A DNA stretch of 26,481 nt from a virus, in IMG/VR virus record IMGVR_UViG_3300042924_003291, positions 1 to 26,481 of that record; one strand, given 5' to 3'. Below, piece by piece: positions 12,217-24,572 of this stretch. The notes under the pieces were generated by a model that saw only the letters and a program-made list of their open reading frames with translations, was not told the DNA's origin and ran no database searches. Numbering within the stretch: the stretch's first letter is position 1; each line of letters begins with the position of its first letter. The translations under genes and the position numbers were made by a program.

Positions 12217-12430
12217 GGGGCGGCTCCGGGAGCGGTTGCCAGTGCGTCGGCCAGTCGTGGGCATCCGGGCCAAAGTCGCCGTCGTCATCCATCCAAACGC
12301 CGATCTTTTTGGATTTTGACGACGCGAAGAACTCCTTGCTCCACGCACCGACAGAAGCCCACCCCTTTTTCCCGAGCAAGATGCGCGTTCCGTCACGCGG
12401 CGCTGTTTCGATTGGTTGCCACTCCGTCAC
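12209..12430 (-). CDS. DUF551 family protein
   Basis: This 73-aa protein begins at a GTG (12430) overlapping the stop of the replication gene (GTGA). It has the DUF551 signature at both ends: WQPIETAPRDGTRILLG near the start and DWPTHWQPLPEPP at the end, with VGAWS and VWMDDDGDFG between. DUF551 proteins are very common in phages and prophages, but their function is not established. Longer upstream readings of this frame lie inside the replication gene and were discarded. Confidence 0.82.
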   Translation of the reverse strand: MTEWQPIETAPRDGTRILLGKKGWASVGAWSKEFFASSKSKKIGVWMDDDGDFGPDAHDWPTHWQPLPEPPRA

Positions 12431-13320
12431 GCCACTTCCCCCTTCTGTCCGATACCGTGTTGCTTGCGCCATGCGATCACAAGAGGCGCGGGAATCTTCC
12501 ACGGGCCTTCGCGGTCGGGCCTTCGCCCCCAATCGTCCGGCCAAAATTTCTTGTCCGGCGTAAATCGCGCCAGGATGCCCGCCCAATCGCTTTCGGACTT
12601 GTCCCGCGTCGGGACTACCGCACCGGATGCGCTCGCAGCCGTAGCCCCATTCCCCGCTTGATTGCGGGCCGGTTTAAAATCGTCCGAACGTCGCAGCCAG
12701 TTCCGCCACGTCGCTTGCCAGTCCAGTTTCGTCGCGTCCCTGCCCGACTTCGCTTTCCAGAAATCTCGGAACTTCGGAAGTTCGCGCGCGATCTGTTGAG
12801 CAGGGAAGTCCTCGGGTTCTGGATTCCAATCATCCGAAAGCCGACAAGCCTTCGGGCGGGGCGCTGCCGTAGGCGGCGCGGCCTCTATCTCTTTCTCTGT
12901 CTGTATGTCTGTATGTGTGTCTGTCTGTATGTCTGTAGCGTTCGCGAATGGTCGCGTATGTTCGCGAACGTCGGTTTGTTCGTTTCGTTCGGCCTTGCTC
13001 TTGCGCCACTCTTTCGCGCGCTCCGCATTGGTAAGGTTCTGACGATCCTTCCACTTTGCGATGTGGTCGCCCTCGATCATGCCCTTGTCCCGCATGGCGA
13101 CGATGACCGCCTCGATCTCGGATGCGGTGAATCCAAGCGCTTCCTCCGCGCAATCTGCGTCGTAAGAGGCTATCGAGCCGCGTTCTTTGGTCCCGCCCGC
13201 CAACTCCAACAGGTACGCCCACACGGCTATGACGCAGCCGGTTTGCGTGTGCGCGAGTTTGGCGATGACGCGGAACTTCGGGTCCGTCACCGTACCGACG
13301 TGCCAGCAAAGCCAGTTCAT
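12427..13320 (-). CDS. Phage replication initiation protein (replisome organiser type)
   Basis: The product is 297 aa. The N-terminal part (residues 1-100) is a winged-helix-type domain (NWLCWHVGTVTDPKFRVIAKL, then VWAYLLELAG and GFTASEIEAVIVAMRDKGMI), typical of phage replication proteins that bind the origin. A basic helix KDRQNLTNAERAKEWRKSK follows, then a low-complexity linker (about 115-150) encoded by a microsatellite and iteron-like repeats. The C-terminal part has the recurrent LSDDWNPEPEDF...FRDFWKAKSGRDATKLDW and WRNWLRR segments found in phage O-like proteins. It overlaps the DnaA-domain gene (ATGA) and is probably the functional counterpart of lambda O. Confidence 0.82.
   Translation of the reverse strand: MNWLCWHVGTVTDPKFRVIAKLAHTQTGCVIAVWAYLLELAGGTKERGSIASYDADCAEEALGFTASEIEAVIVAMRDKGMIEGDHIAKWKDRQNLTNAERAKEWRKSKAERNEQTDVREHTRPFANATDIQTDTHTDIQTEKEIEAAPPTAAPRPKACRLSDDWNPEPEDFPAQQIARELPKFRDFWKAKSGRDATKLDWQATWRNWLRRSDDFKPARNQAGNGATAASASGAVVPTRDKSESDWAGILARFTPDKKFWPDDWGRRPDREGPWKIPAPLVIAWRKQHGIGQKGEVA
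12897..12937. repeat. TGTC/TGTA microsatellite inside the replication gene
   Basis: About 40 bases consist of alternating TGTCTGTA and TGTC/TGTG units on the plus strand. They encode Thr/Asp/Gln/His-rich linker residues (TDIQTDTHTDIQTE) of the replication protein and give strong purine/pyrimidine strand asymmetry next to the iteron-like repeats. Confidence 0.7.
12941..12970. repeat. Three 10-bp iteron-like repeats inside the replication gene (candidate origin)
   Basis: Three direct units, TTCGCGAATG, GTCGCGTATG and TTCGCGAACG, abut one another. The first and third contain the palindrome TTCGCGAA, spaced exactly 20 bp apart. They lie in the linker-coding part of the replication gene, as the lambda origin iterons lie in gene O. 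Confidence 0.55.
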
Positions 13321-16060: not shown

Positions 16061-16824
16061 GCGGTCATTCCTTCGGCTTGGGCGATGGCGCGGCCAATGA
16101 GTTCGGGGATTTGCGGGACGACGCTGTTGCCGAGGGCCTTAAGGCGGTGTGATCTATCGGGAACCCCATCAGCCACTCCACCGCTTTTACCGGCGGGTAC
16201 AGAAACCCGAAGTTGATCTTGAACCAGTCCCTCAAATTGTTGCTCGGGCCACGCCCGACACGCAGCCGGCCGGAGCCTTTGTGGTCGCAAGCTGTCGGTG
16301 TCGGAATAAGCGGTGATCCAGACGCGGCCGCGGTGGTGTCGCGCACCAAGGGCGGACGCCGGTAGGTAATCCCATTCCGCATCAAACCCGATTTCGGCCA
16401 GGTCTCCGAGTACTCGGCCGAACCAAGCCCCTGGCTTGAATTCTGGGCCAGCCAGCAAGTTTGCGACGTTCTCCACAATCGCGACCCGCGGTCGTATCTC
16501 GCCAATAAGTCTGTGAAAGTGGGACCAGAGGCCGGATCGCTCACCCTCAAGCCCCGCGCCTTTTCCGGCAACGCTGATGTCCTGGCAGGGGAACCCGCCG
16601 CAGATTGCGTCAACGGCAATTCCATCTGCGGCAAGTCTGTCTGCGGTAAGGGTGCGAATGTCATCGTATTGCGGAACCTCGGGCCAGTGTTTCGCCAGCA
16701 CCTTTCGGCAGAAGGGGTCTATCTCGCAGAAGGCGACCGTCTTGAACGCACCGCTGCGCTCCAGGCCGAGGGAAAAGCCCCCGATACCCGAGAAAAGGTC
16801 GAGCAGGCGAAACGGCTGTTTCAT
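16057..16824 (-). CDS. C5-cytosine DNA methyltransferase (Dcm-like)
   Basis: The product is 255 aa, short for the family. Visible motifs are I (DLFSGIGGFSLGLE, residues 9-22), II (FCEIDPF), IV (GGFPCQDIS, catalytic Cys80), VI (VENVANLL), VIII (RHHRGRVWITA, in place of the usual QRR) and X (RLKALGNSVVPQ). The target recognition region between VIII and X is only about 50 residues. It methylates C5 of cytosine with S-adenosylmethionine; no restriction partner is nearby, so protection of phage DNA is likely. The ATG at 16824 overlaps the HTH gene stop (ATGA); upstream extension of this frame lies in that gene. Most of its 3' part also carries a long ORF in a second frame. Confidence 0.92.
   Translation of the reverse strand: MKQPFRLLDLFSGIGGFSLGLERSGAFKTVAFCEIDPFCRKVLAKHWPEVPQYDDIRTLTADRLAADGIAVDAICGGFPCQDISVAGKGAGLEGERSGLWSHFHRLIGEIRPRVAIVENVANLLAGPEFKPGAWFGRVLGDLAEIGFDAEWDYLPASALGARHHRGRVWITAYSDTDSLRPQRLRPAACRAWPEQQFEGLVQDQLRVSVPAGKSGGVADGVPDRSHRLKALGNSVVPQIPELIGRAIAQAEGMTA
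16065..16664 (-). CDS. Out-of-frame ORF nested in the cytosine methyltransferase gene
   Basis: A 199-aa frame, shifted by one base on the same strand, runs uninterrupted from 16664 to 16065, ending 8 bases before the methyltransferase stop. Its product is not random-looking. It carries SPARTSALPEKARGL, SETWPKSGLMRNGITY, LIPTPTACD and EWLMGFP, which I recognise as segments of proteins commonly annotated beside or over phage Dcm genes. These segments correspond to the shifted reading of Dcm motifs IV, VIII and X, so the family could be a real overprinted gene or a widespread annotation artefact created by conserved Dcm codons. The start ATG lacks a strong Shine-Dalgarno. Confidence 0.4.
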   Translation of the reverse strand: MTFAPLPQTDLPQMELPLTQSAAGSPARTSALPEKARGLRVSDPASGPTFTDLLARYDRGSRLWRTSQTCWLAQNSSQGLGSAEYSETWPKSGLMRNGITYRRPPLVRDTTAAASGSPLIPTPTACDHKGSGRLRVGRGPSNNLRDWFKINFGFLYPPVKAVEWLMGFPIDHTALRPSATASSRKSPNSLAAPSPKPKE

Positions 16825-17180
16825 CCCCTCACCTTCGCAAGCAGCTTGTGGATCTGATCCAGTACGGCGGCGGGATGCTCGCCGGAGTCTCCGGTTTCCG
16901 CGTTGACGAGGGACAGGACAAGAGCGCGGACGCCGGGATACTGACGGGCCAGCGCGATCAATGCGGGCGCGGATATCGGATGCTCTTTGCGCTTCAGCCC
17001 GTCGATTGTCCGCTTGGACACACCGGCCCGGAACGCGAGCACCTTCGCAGGCTCGTGCGTGCGCTCTAGGACGCGCGGCAGCATGTTTGCGAGGTCGTCT
17101 CGGATCGCTAGGGCTGCGCTCATGTCGCGCCCCGCATTGCCGACCTGTTGAAACGGTTTGCAAACTCGTTCTTGGGACAT
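16821..17180 (-). CDS. Helix-turn-helix regulator (119 aa), early operon
   Basis: The core AKVLAFRAGVSKRTIDGLKRK (about residues 45-65) is a helix-turn-helix in which VSKRTID is the recognition helix start, followed by a helical region (ALIALARQYPGVRALVLSLV). The ATG at 17180 has AGGAG 8 bases upstream. An internal ATG at 17123 (MSAALAIRDD) overlaps the stop of a minus-strand ORF (ATGA) and would give a 100-aa protein that fits the coupling style of this operon, so the start is uncertain. By position (after cro, before replication genes) it could be the counterpart of lambda CII. Confidence 0.75.
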   Translation of the reverse strand: MSQERVCKPFQQVGNAGRDMSAALAIRDDLANMLPRVLERTHEPAKVLAFRAGVSKRTIDGLKRKEHPISAPALIALARQYPGVRALVLSLVNAETGDSGEHPAAVLDQIHKLLAKVRG

Positions 17181-17822: not shown

Positions 17823-18035
17823 CTAGGCGGCCCGCCGATCTTTGGGGGCCATTTGAGCCAGCTTGGCGACGGTCACCTTGGGCGCTAGTGCGCGCTCCAC
17901 ATCAAGCCAATGGGCCGAAGGAATGCGGTTCTTGAGCCGCCAGCGGCGCACCGTGTCGGCCTTCTGCCCAAGCCTGCGCGCGGCCTGTATGGGGCCACCG
18001 AGCATCTCGATTACGTCGTTATGTGTGTGAACCAT
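17823..18035 (-). CDS. Cro-like antirepressor (YdaS/carph-isopro type HTH)
   Basis: The 70-aa protein reads DVIEMLGGPIQAARRLGQKADTVRRW, then RIPSAHWLDVERAL. This is the YdaS-type Cro pattern with the helix-turn-helix at about residues 13-33 (IQAARRLG...TVRRWRLKN). The ATG lies 7 bases after the -10 of the leftward early promoter, so the mRNA is probably leaderless. It is divergent from the repressor and first in the leftward operon, the classical cro position. It should bind the same 15-bp operators and lower repressor synthesis during lytic growth. Confidence 0.85.
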   Translation of the reverse strand: MVHTHNDVIEMLGGPIQAARRLGQKADTVRRWRLKNRIPSAHWLDVERALAPKVTVAKLAQMAPKDRRAA

Positions 18036-18042
18036 TCCCGGA

Positions 18043-18088
18043 AGAATATGGGATATACCTTCCCTAAGTCAATGGGAAATATGTTCCC
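18043..18088 (-). promoter_or_regulatory. Leftward early promoter (PR-like) with two operators
   Basis: Read leftward: operator GGGAACATATTTCCC (18088-18074), one base, -35 TTGACT (18072-18067), two bases, operator GGGAAGGTATATCCC (18064-18050), one base, -10 TATTCT (18048-18043). The -35/-10 spacing is 18. Both operators are dyads with GGGA/TCCC arms and the second occludes the spacer, so repressor binding should block transcription of cro and the leftward operon. Confidence 0.8.
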
Positions 18089-18117
18089 CGTCCAAGCTAT
18101 TGACATTGTGGTATAAT
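18074..18117 (+). promoter_or_regulatory. Repressor promoter (PRM-like) with extended -10
   Basis: TGGTATAAT (18109-18117) is a perfect extended -10. No good -35 is visible. The shared operator 18074-18088 is centred about 43 bases upstream of the expected start near 18124, the distance at which a phage repressor can contact RNA polymerase and activate its own promoter. The GTG of the repressor gene is 6 bases after the -10. Confidence 0.7.
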
Positions 18118-18123
18118 TGCCAC

Positions 18124-18414
18124 GTGGCAAAGAAAGCAGACCGACCATTAGCACTTGAATATAAGCAAGCCGTGGGCGCGAGATTGCGCGAGTGGCGGCT
18201 GAAAACCGGTCGTGTACAAACAGAAGTCGCGCAACTTCTAGACATATCCAGGGATCGGTACGCTAATTATGAGGACGGCGGCTCCGAGATGCCGTACTGG
18301 ATTCTAGCCAAGCTGGACTTGCTCGGGGTCGATCTGCGCTGGCTCATTACGGGCCGCACAACTAAGAATTCGACCCTGCCGGTTGCACCGTTTCGCGTTG
18401 CACAGGGGGATTAA
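18124..18414 (+). CDS. cI-like repressor, XRE-family HTH, single domain
   Basis: From the GTG at 18124 the product is 96 aa. The helix-turn-helix spans about residues 17-50 (GARLREWRLKTGRVQTEVAQL, then LDISRDRYANYEDG), followed by PYWILAKLDLLGVDLRWLITG, typical of XRE repressors. It has no S24/LexA-type cleavage domain, so RecA-driven self-cleavage is not expected and induction must use another route. An upstream TTG at 18100 would read through the promoter itself and is rejected. It should maintain lysogeny by binding four operators (two left, two right). The TAA is followed at once by a C16 run. Confidence 0.85.
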   Translation: MAKKADRPLALEYKQAVGARLREWRLKTGRVQTEVAQLLDISRDRYANYEDGGSEMPYWILAKLDLLGVDLRWLITGRTTKNSTLPVAPFRVAQGD

Positions 18415-18430
18415 CCCCCCCCCCCCCCCC
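18415..18430 (+). repeat. C16 homopolymer directly after the repressor stop codon
   Basis: Sixteen consecutive C follow the TAA without a gap. The five preceding G (18405-18409) could fold onto them around ATTAA, placing the stop codon in the loop. Homopolymers of this length are unusual and their length is uncertain in many sequencing methods. Confidence 0.85.
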
Positions 18431-18482
18431 ACGAATCGCTGTAAACATTCCGTAAACATGACCGCATAATTTATTTAGCGGT

Positions 18483-18527
18483 GGGAAGTTGTTTCCCCTT
18501 GCTTTGGGATAAAACGTCCCATATTAT
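18483..18527 (+). promoter_or_regulatory. Rightward early promoter (PL-like) with two operators
   Basis: In order: operator GGGAAGTTGTTTCCC (18483-18497), one base, -35 TTGCTT (18499-18504), one base, operator GGGATAAAACGTCCC (18506-18520), one base, -10 TATTAT (18522-18527), with a 17-base spacing. The arrangement matches the leftward promoter element for element. Transcription should start near 18534 and serve the recombination operon. Confidence 0.8.
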
Positions 18528-18573
18528 CTCTCCATACACAGCGGCACCGACGCCGCCAATGGAGGGACAGAAG

Positions 18574-18783
18574 ATGGAAATCAACCTCGACAAGCTGGGC
18601 CGCATCGCAGAAGGCACCCCCGCCGTATTCTTCCGCGTTGAAACGTGGAACACGGGCGCCCGCGTTGCCGATTTCACGACCGAGGGCGAGGCCGCTGCTT
18701 TTGCCATTGCCGACGCTTCGGCCAAGCGCTGCCGCTTCGACCACAAGGTTTCCCGCATCACGATGGTTCGGGGGCGCGGCTAA
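18574..18783 (+). CDS. Small hypothetical protein (69 aa), first gene of the rightward early operon
   Basis: The ATG at 18574 has GGAGGG 7 bases upstream; a longer in-frame reading would begin inside the operator region and is rejected. The product alternates helix and strand (MEINLDKLGRIAEGTPAVFF, VADFTTEGEAAAFAIADAS, VSRITMVRGRG). Transcribed first from the repressor-controlled promoter, it may counter host defences or regulate early events, but that is inference. No family is recognised. Confidence 0.7.
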   Translation: MEINLDKLGRIAEGTPAVFFRVETWNTGARVADFTTEGEAAAFAIADASAKRCRFDHKVSRITMVRGRG

Positions 18784-19951: not shown

Positions 19952-20670
19952 TCGACTACAAGCACCACTCGGTAGCAAGGGCGAACAAGTTCCGCGAAGC
20001 GCCGGACGCCTTTGTCGGGTCGTATCTCTTGGGCTTCCGCGATGAGGTCAACGGGAAGATGGCGGCGGGATCGGCGGTTGAGAAGGCCACTTGGAACGCG
20101 CTTATTGACCCGAACGTCGCGCCGCTGCCCGTTGCGGAAGCCAACTTCGATTCCGAAATGAAGGGCGAGGTCACAAAAGAGCGTGGCGACCTTGGGCCGC
20201 TTTGCGAACAAGCATTTGAGGCCCTTTTCCAGTTCGGCAAGCCCCTCACCTACCAAGCCCCGATCAAACTGGCACCGGGCGAGCGGTTCGGCCTGCGCTA
20301 TGGCGTGACCGGATACACGGATTTTGGATACGGGGACGCTTTCGATATTGACCTAAAAGTCACATGGGCGCTGCCGTCCAAGCCGAAGTTCTCGCACGTC
20401 TGCCAAGTCGGGACGTACTCGAAACTTCGCGGGGATAAGCCGCAGAAGCTCTGCTACGTCACGCCGAAGAAATTCGCGATCTACGACGTGTCGCCGGAAG
20501 AACTGGACATGGGCTGGCGCACCACGCTTGCGACGTGGAAGCGCATTGAGACGATGCTTTCGATCATCGAGACGCCCGCAGATGCGTGCGCGCTGTATCC
20601 GCTCAACCTGGATTCCTTCTACTGGTCCGAAACCACGAAACCCCGCGCTATGGAGGCTTGGGCAATCTAA
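19948..20670 (+). CDS. PD-(D/E)XK exonuclease, RecB-like, phage recombination
   Basis: The product is 240 aa. RecB-family landmarks are E45 (GSAVEKA), D125 (GYTDF), D135-L-K137 (FDIDLKVT, the DxK catalytic pair), and Q153...Y157 (CQVGTYSKL, the QxxxY motif). It would degrade one strand of duplex ends to make single-stranded DNA for the annealing protein encoded next. The ATG overlaps the preceding stop (ATGA). Its partner is the ERF protein, and the pair plays the role of lambda Exo and Beta. Confidence 0.82.
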   Translation: MIDYKHHSVARANKFREAPDAFVGSYLLGFRDEVNGKMAAGSAVEKATWNALIDPNVAPLPVAEANFDSEMKGEVTKERGDLGPLCEQAFEALFQFGKPLTYQAPIKLAPGERFGLRYGVTGYTDFGYGDAFDIDLKVTWALPSKPKFSHVCQVGTYSKLRGDKPQKLCYVTPKKFAIYDVSPEELDMGWRTTLATWKRIETMLSIIETPADACALYPLNLDSFYWSETTKPRAMEAWAI

Positions 20671-21347
20671 TGAAAACCTCGGAAGCCATTGACCAGATCG
20701 CGACCGCGCTTGCCGTCGCACAGTCGAAGATGAAGCCCGCAGTCAAGGACTCAACAAACCCGCACTTCAAGTCCAAGTATGCGGACCTGACGAGCGTTTG
20801 GGAGTCCTGCCGCGAAGGGCTGACGGCAAACCACGTCGCCACCGTCCAGAACGTCGAGACGGTAGACGGTCGGGTACTCGTCACAACGCGGCTCATTCAC
20901 AAGTCGGGCCAGTGGATCGAGTTCGGCCCCCTCTCCGTTCCCATGCAGAAGGTCGATGCACATGGCGTCGGGTCGGCGGTGTCCTATGCCCGTCGATACG
21001 CCCTTAGTGCCGCTGTGGGCGTCGTGACGGACGATGACGACGGGAACGCCGCAGTGTCCGGTGAAGCCGCCCCCGCCAACGCCCCCGCGATGAAGAACAA
21101 GCTCGCCGCCGTCACGTCGGGCGCGAAGGTTCCCGAACCGAAGATCGAACCGCCCGCCCAACTCAGCGAGGCCGCGCTGAAAGAGGCCGCGAAGATGATC
21201 CGCAAGGAACTCGACAAGGCCCCCGACATGGCGACGGTCGAGGAAATCAAGACCCACCACGCCACGACACTGACCGCAATCAAGGCGTCCAGCCCGAAGC
21301 TGCACGCATGGACCCTGGAATCCGCAACGGCAATGGAGGCCGCATAA
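20670..21347 (+). CDS. erf: ERF family single-strand annealing protein
   Basis: The product is 225 aa. The N-terminal core (residues 1-130) shows the ERF pattern: IATALAVAQSKMKPAVKDS, NPHFKSKYADL, TTRLIHKSGQWIE, and GVGSAVSYARRYALSAAVGV followed by DDDDGN. The C-terminal half is an Ala/Pro/Lys-rich linker and a helical tail. ERF proteins form rings that anneal complementary single strands in phage recombination. The gene overlaps the exonuclease stop by one base (TAATG). Confidence 0.9.
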   Translation: MKTSEAIDQIATALAVAQSKMKPAVKDSTNPHFKSKYADLTSVWESCREGLTANHVATVQNVETVDGRVLVTTRLIHKSGQWIEFGPLSVPMQKVDAHGVGSAVSYARRYALSAAVGVVTDDDDGNAAVSGEAAPANAPAMKNKLAAVTSGAKVPEPKIEPPAQLSEAALKEAAKMIRKELDKAPDMATVEEIKTHHATTLTAIKASSPKLHAWTLESATAMEAA

Positions 21348-23966: not shown

Positions 23967-24221
23967 ATCTAGGCATACTGGAAATTGCAGGAACCTACTA
24001 AATCAGGTATGGGAGGCTAAGTAATTGGAGATGTTGAATACTATATAATATGACATCTTATCCAGATACCATACGATTGAAACTTTATTACCCGCCCCAT
24101 TTCTCACGCAACTTTATTGCTATGTTCTATATATGTTTTGATTTTGTTCGCTAATTTCCCCGAATCATGTATAGTATGTCCGCGTCGTTTGACGCGCCCC
24201 GAAACCAACCTGGAGCGCCCT
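23967..24221 (+). promoter_or_regulatory. AT-rich untranslated island before the HNH gene, with 5' hairpin
   Basis: This 255-base stretch is strikingly AT-rich against GC-rich neighbours and has no convincing gene. It contains TATAAT at 24044 and TATAGT at 24170, both with poor -35 elements. A perfect hairpin (CGCGTC, GTTT loop, GACGCG, 24181-24196) lies where a transcript from 24170 would begin, 26 bases before the GTG. This looks like an acquired leader carried with the HNH gene. Confidence 0.5.
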
Positions 24222-24572
24222 GTGAAGCGCGGAAATTCAAAGACCCTCGCCCAAGTCCTCGATAATTACGAAGTCTCTGAAACCGGATGCTGGAATTGGA
24301 AAGGCGCTAAGAACGCCTACGGATACGGCATCTTGAATAGGCCCGCCAAGGACGGCCCCCACGCCCCGCGCGTCATCCGGGGCGCTCATAGGGTCGCCTA
24401 TACCCACTGGTGCGGCGAAGTGCCCCCGAACATGAACGTCATGCACACATGCGACAATCGGGCCTGCATCAACCCCGCGCACCTTCGGATCGGCACCCAT
24501 GCCGATAACCTCAAGGACATGACGGACAAAGGGCGGGATCGGCGGGGCTTGCGGTACAAGGATGCCGCATGA
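24222..24572 (+). CDS. Freestanding HNH endonuclease (homing type)
   Basis: The product is 116 aa from a GTG with GGAG 7 bases upstream; a longer reading from 24117 would translate the AT-rich leader. It has an N-terminal GCWNWKGAKNAYGYG (typical of phage HNH proteins), RGAHRVAYTHWCGEVP, and the HNH core VMHTCDNRACINPAHLRIG (H75, N84, H87). The C-terminus, NLKDMTDKGRDRRG, is the usual phage-HNH tail. Such enzymes cut DNA and move between phage genomes. It sits at the end of the rightward operon next to foreign-looking AT-rich DNA, consistent with recent acquisition. Confidence 0.85.
   Translation: MKRGNSKTLAQVLDNYEVSETGCWNWKGAKNAYGYGILNRPAKDGPHAPRVIRGAHRVAYTHWCGEVPPNMNVMHTCDNRACINPAHLRIGTHADNLKDMTDKGRDRRGLRYKDAA

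Follow-up and report, generated by a model that had tools for sequence, protein, structure and literature searches.

A predicted lambda-like repressor-operator switch with paired operators in a virus genome fragment

Introduction

Lambda supplies the reference for operator spacing and for a leaderless repressor promoter in phage immunity regions, and its CI protein activates the repressor promoter, PRM, from the OR2 position. Activation of PRM by CI from such an operator position has also been described elsewhere (PMC8630535). Several other phages show how this plan varies. In PY54 the cI and cro mRNAs were demonstrated to be leaderless (PMC4488713), and in CP-933P the YdaS protein was shown to be a Cro analogue that opposes the CI analogue (PMC8630535). 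Phage 933W lacks an OL3 site, and binding at OR1 is not cooperative with binding at OR2 (PMC5977221).

Here we describe a locus of this familiar kind, of which it is a new example, in a 26,481-base IMG/VR virus record (the window, meaning the whole stretch of DNA that was analysed), which is classed as linear and is probably a fragment. A single-domain repressor gene, a divergent Cro-like gene and four operators arranged two to a promoter make up the region, and they are compared below with a prophage locus and with two related phage contigs.

Results

The repressor gene (P0001, 18124-18414, plus strand) and a gene for a Cro/YdaS-like regulator (P0002, 17823-18035, minus strand) diverge from a shared operator region. 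The repressor is a 96-residue protein with a single HTH domain of the XRE/Cro-CI type (34.2 bits to HTH_31, cut-off 27), and its best match among solved structures is the 434 repressor. Pfam and PHROGs searches matched only the HTH and found no C-terminal dimerisation or self-cleavage domain; the domain behind the cooperativity of lambda CI is absent. The 70-residue Cro-like protein matches two profiles below their cut-offs (YdaS, 28.4 bits vs a cut-off of 30; P22_Cro, 21 vs 30.2), the same below-cut-off picture given by the Cro-like proteins of the related contigs G001 and G003, and its best match among solved structures is the Cro protein 3bd1. The gene layout and these family matches bear out the initial annotation of a repressor gene with a divergent Cro-like neighbour. 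AlphaFold predictions, with mean pLDDT of 50 and 59, were too poor in quality to be used.

Profile searches placed replication genes on the cro side of the region and recombination genes on the opposite side, which is the division found in lambda, in mirror image. The leftward operon encodes a replication initiation/primosomal protein (12427-13320, minus strand), DNA methyltransferases and a Holliday junction resolvase-like protein. The rightward operon begins with a gene for a 69-residue protein of no known family (18574-18783, plus strand) and includes an Erf-type single-strand annealing protein (20586-21347, plus strand). Just upstream of the C5 methyltransferase gene, a small ORF (16821-17180, minus strand) has a weak HTH_3 match and a counterpart in G003 (39750-39851); it had no match in the Pfam or PHROGs scans and is possibly a methyltransferase regulator or a CII-like factor. 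Directly past the repressor stop codon is a run of 16 C (18415-18430), and the sequence GGGGG-ATTAA-CCCCC spans the stop codon itself. The C run may load Rho, be prone to slippage or mark a weak point in the assembly.

Four 15-bp dyads are associated with the two early promoters. On the leftward, cro-side promoter, GGGATATACCTTCCC (18050-18064) lies inside the -35/-10 spacer and GGGAAATATGTTCCC (18074-18088) lies one base upstream of the -35, while on the rightward promoter GGGAAGTTGTTTCCC (18483-18497) lies one base upstream of the -35 and GGGATAAAACGTCCC (18506-18520) fills the spacer. Each is supported by its sequence, by the matrix and motif-blind searches described below, and by a counterpart in the prophage locus. 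The initial annotation gave the dyads the form GGGAW-N5-WTCCC; the coordinates of all four held and three fit exactly, but the dyad at 18506-18520 has a G instead of W at position 11. Because of this one mismatch, the form common to all four is GGGA-N7-TCCC.

The distribution of these sites is not random. GGGA-N7-TCCC occurs five times in the record and four of the occurrences are the operators (shuffled sequences averaged 0.51, with a maximum of 4 in 300). A matrix scan of the whole record, as the initial annotation had proposed, ranked the four sites best at 15.3-17.8 bits with the next best site at 9.8, so that the 26.5-kb record does not hold the many equally good sites that would have spoken against them. 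The scan found no third like site on either side, leaving two operators per side. Since the matrix was built from the four operators themselves, its scores are partly circular, and motif-blind tests were added for this reason. All 4-base half-sites, with every gap from 0 to 9, were tried on the two intergenic regions, and in 3000 shuffles none was present four times. A search for related 15-mers in the two promoter regions, run without a given motif, returned exactly these four sites, and none of 400 shuffles gave a result as good.

Taken as one unit, operator, -35, operator and -10 make up a double element that occurs twice within 480 bp in the window. A search for it in IMG/VR gave no matches, and 257 Gb of genomes gave one, upstream of a signal-recognition (ffh-type) gene, which is apparently a chance site. 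Scans of IMG/VR with operator pairs returned other repeats rather than this switch.

The leftward early promoter (minus strand) has TTGACT at 18072-18067, an 18-base spacer and TATTCT at 18048-18043. Its -10 ends seven bases before the cro-like ATG at 18035, and its predicted +1 (18036) is one base ahead of that ATG. The rightward early promoter (18499-18527, plus strand) reads TTGCTT-17-TATTAT with a predicted +1 at 18534, and is followed by a 40-base leader and then by a gene with a Shine-Dalgarno sequence at 18574. At both promoters we find an operator, one base and the -35, then an operator, one base and the -10, in agreement with the placement first proposed. The two promoters had also been said to align element by element, which is correct for the layout of operators, -35 and -10 but not for the spacers, at 18 bases on the left vs 17 on the right.

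A third promoter, absent from the initial annotation as were the leaderless starts, is predicted for the repressor gene at 18090-18117 (plus strand), with a weak -35 and an extended -10, TGG-TATAAT, whose hexamer is at 18112-18117. Its predicted +1 is the repressor GTG at 18124. With predicted transcript starts at or beside the start codons, the repressor and Cro-like mRNAs are both predicted to be leaderless. In G003, -10 hexamers lie six bases before both start codons, despite a different repressor in that slot. Relative to the repressor promoter, the centre of the operator at 18074-18088 lies at -43, the place of lambda OR2.

Three further elements were seen near these promoters. A perfect 14-bp palindrome, TTGCCACGTGGCAA (18117-18130), covers the repressor start and is a speculative candidate site for the Cro-like protein; it is one of two perfect palindromes of at least 14 bp in the record, where shuffled sequences have 2.9 per record on average. 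A GCGGC-N6-GCCGC hairpin in the 5' leader of the rightward transcript (18534-18576) is conserved in G001, at about -10 kcal/mol in both, and is a possible antitermination or stability element. At 18439-18460, 40-60 bp upstream of the rightward -35, the direct repeat GTAAACAT-NNC-GTAAACAT has an 11-bp period and is a possible activator site or UP element. An Rfam search gave no matches.

When alphaproteobacterial genomes were searched, a single homologue of the repressor came up, 51% identical, at a locus in genome G255 that we call L107. Its contig is phage DNA with a terminase gene adjoining. The homologue has R, D and N, identical to the window repressor, where the proteins align with the base-contact residues Gln28, Gln29 and Gln33 of the 434 repressor, and these are its predicted contact residues. 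The leftward -35 of L107 lies exactly 52 nt from the repressor start, the same distance as in the window, and its rightward promoter, 3' of the repressor gene, likewise has TATTAT as its -10. When the L107 intergenic DNA was searched without a motif, four similar 15-mers were found, two per promoter (3 of 400 shuffles were as good). These sites, GGGAGTTTTTATCAT, GTGATAAAAACACAC, ATGATATTTTGTCCT and GTGGTTTAATATCAT, occupy matching places 2 bp off the window register. At that register, picked among five shifts, they score 20 of 32 against GGGA-N7-TCCC, compared to 11 or less at the other registers, and none of 4000 letter shuffles or 20,000 random quadruples scored as well. A 5-base centre for the L107 sites was rejected, as the 7-base register was far better. 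The four-site arrangement is conserved around a homologous repressor.

The rule common to the window and L107 sites is RKGA-N7-TCMY. L107 half-sites are RKGA, best ATGA/GTGA, vs GGGA in the window, though the predicted contact residues are identical, and therefore these residues do not fully explain specificity. No Cro-like gene adjoins the L107 repressor, and the gene to its left encodes a DUF6456 protein. The lack of a Cro-like neighbour ties the sites to the repressor, in a comparison that rests on a single homologue: samples at the order, class and phylum levels returned no L107-type repressor other than L107 itself, and no close repressor relative was found in IMG/VR with the repressor, the Cro-like protein or an alignment of the two repressor sequences as queries. 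Distant repressor matches in phages and plasmids (31-52% identity) lie in other contexts and were set aside.

G001 and G003 are metagenome contigs. G001 is the nearer, with a 97% identical portal and 91% identical DNA over the structural genes. Its Cro-like gene, of the same family, faces the rightward operon across only about 115 bp (L091 1701-1816), and the contig has no repressor, no GGGA-N7-TCCC, no HTH_3 match and no integrase, absences to be taken with caution in an assembly of this kind. Similarity to the window DNA resumes at 18521, the rightward -10, immediately past the last operator, and both this -10 and the leader are conserved. As G001 has neither the repressor nor the sites, operators and repressor come and go together, and G001 is possibly a virulent form. 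G003, whose portal is 73% identical, encodes a small HTH repressor at this position, unrelated to that of the window, along with a tyrosine integrase; its repressor region holds no significant repeated 15-mer (29 of 60 shuffles were as good). The contents of these two contigs, together with the edge of similarity at the operator, indicate that the region behaves as an immunity cassette that can be exchanged. Neither a tyrosine nor a serine recombinase was found in the window, including the stretch where G003 has its integrase, in a record that seems to lack about 11 kb relative to G001 and G003. An HNH endonuclease gene (24117-24572) is in or near the place of that integrase.

Discussion

The gene layout, the promoter positions, the family matches and the four-site arrangement at L107 support the initial annotation of the locus as a lambda-like switch. 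We consider it very probable, for the proposed mechanism as a whole, that the locus serves as the immunity region of a phage that is apparently temperate and built on the lambda plan. From sequence we infer that the repressor binds the sites, represses the early promoters and activates its own gene, that the phage enters lysogeny, and what part the Cro-like protein plays. In the proposed mechanism, a dimer of the 96-residue repressor would bind each of the four GGGA-N7-TCCC sites, one dimer sitting just upstream of the -35 and another between the -35 and -10 at each early promoter. The bound dimers would block RNA polymerase from the leftward cro/replication operon and the rightward Erf/recombination operon. 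At 18074-18088 the repressor probably also raises its own expression, in the manner of lambda CI at OR2, since this operator is at -43 of a leaderless promoter whose -35 is weak and whose -10 is extended. The Cro-like protein probably counteracts the repressor, through the same operators or through the palindrome that covers the repressor start.

Lambda Cro shares its operators with CI and the Cro-like gene (18035-17823) adjoins the sites, so the four sites could instead serve mainly the Cro-like protein, with the repressor binding elsewhere or acting as a minor partner. We regard this as improbable, because L107 has the four-site arrangement and a homologous repressor without a Cro-like neighbour, while in G001 a Cro-like protein from this family occurs without the repressor and without these sites. 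The same two comparisons make it very unlikely that the sites serve a host regulator controlling the phage early promoters. Phages do sometimes borrow host regulators such as LexA, but at L107, in an unrelated genome, related sites accompany the repressor gene, and the close relative without a repressor also lacks the sites.

The right-hand dyads could also be RNA hairpins acting as terminators after the repressor gene, their likeness to the left-hand dyads being incidental; a pattern scan flagged both as terminator-like. We give this almost no credence, as shuffled sequences average 1.0 such match per region, the stems have only three G-C pairs, and terminators leave unexplained both the left pair and the identical placement in the two promoters. 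There is likewise only a slight chance that the switch is a relic, or that the contig is a chimaera joined at the 16-C run after the repressor. This run is the longest homopolymer in the record, and the nearest relative, G001, has no repressor. Against this reading, both flanks match that same relative, one motif is common to the operators on both sides of the run, and the repressor frame is intact.

The repressor-operator switch thus favoured is clean and very compact, and comes from an uncultured phage group without a close relative among sequenced phages. From it comes the rule RKGA-N7-TCMY for the operators of a small repressor family whose predicted contact residues are fixed. Its close relatives differ in the presence of the repressor and so offer a natural test of the gain or loss of lysogeny, and the symmetric two-plus-two layout suits the study of switching without lambda-style cooperativity. 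A more tentative idea, which we hold as doubtful, is that a stripped-down lambda switch of a single-domain repressor and two operators per promoter runs the choice between lysis and lysogeny, and that repressor and operators together, as a movable cassette, turn temperate phages of this group into virulent ones and back. The movable cassette is suggested by the relative that has a nearly identical portal but lacks the repressor and operators.

Among known systems, the lambda and 434 immunity regions share with the window their gene order and directions (here in mirror image), operators that precede and lie within the early promoters, a centre-to-centre operator spacing of 23-24 bp, and a leaderless repressor promoter with an operator near -42. 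The window operators, 15-bp GGGA-N7-TCCC sites, are unlike those of lambda and 434. Compared to lambda, the 96-residue repressor is single-domain without a C-terminal domain, there are two operators per side instead of three, the operator pairs are only about 430 bp apart without rex genes, and no integrase was found in the incomplete record. The window switch is thus lambda-type in the broad sense and, as the two-domain repressor and third operators are absent, is not a strict lambdoid CI system.

Like the window, the immB regions of N15, phiKO2 and PY54 have divergent repressor and cro genes. In N15 the OR sites fall between cB and cro and there are two sites at OL, and the leaderless cI and cro mRNAs of PY54 match our prediction for the window (PMC4488713). 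Unlike the window, N15 and phiKO2 have three OR sites, N15 has its OL upstream of repA, and PY54 has a single operator. In the PaaR2/YdaS/YdaT region of CP-933P, YdaS resembles the window Cro-like protein, whereas a YdaT/CII-like protein was not recognised in the window; a further difference is that PaaR2 octamerises and heads a toxin-antitoxin operon. Phage 933W is a precedent for switches without strong cooperativity, although it retains the OR3 that the window lacks. L107 differs in having no adjacent Cro-like gene, in its RKGA half-sites and in its leftward DUF6456 gene, but it shares with the window a homologous repressor, two flanking promoters and four related sites in matching places.
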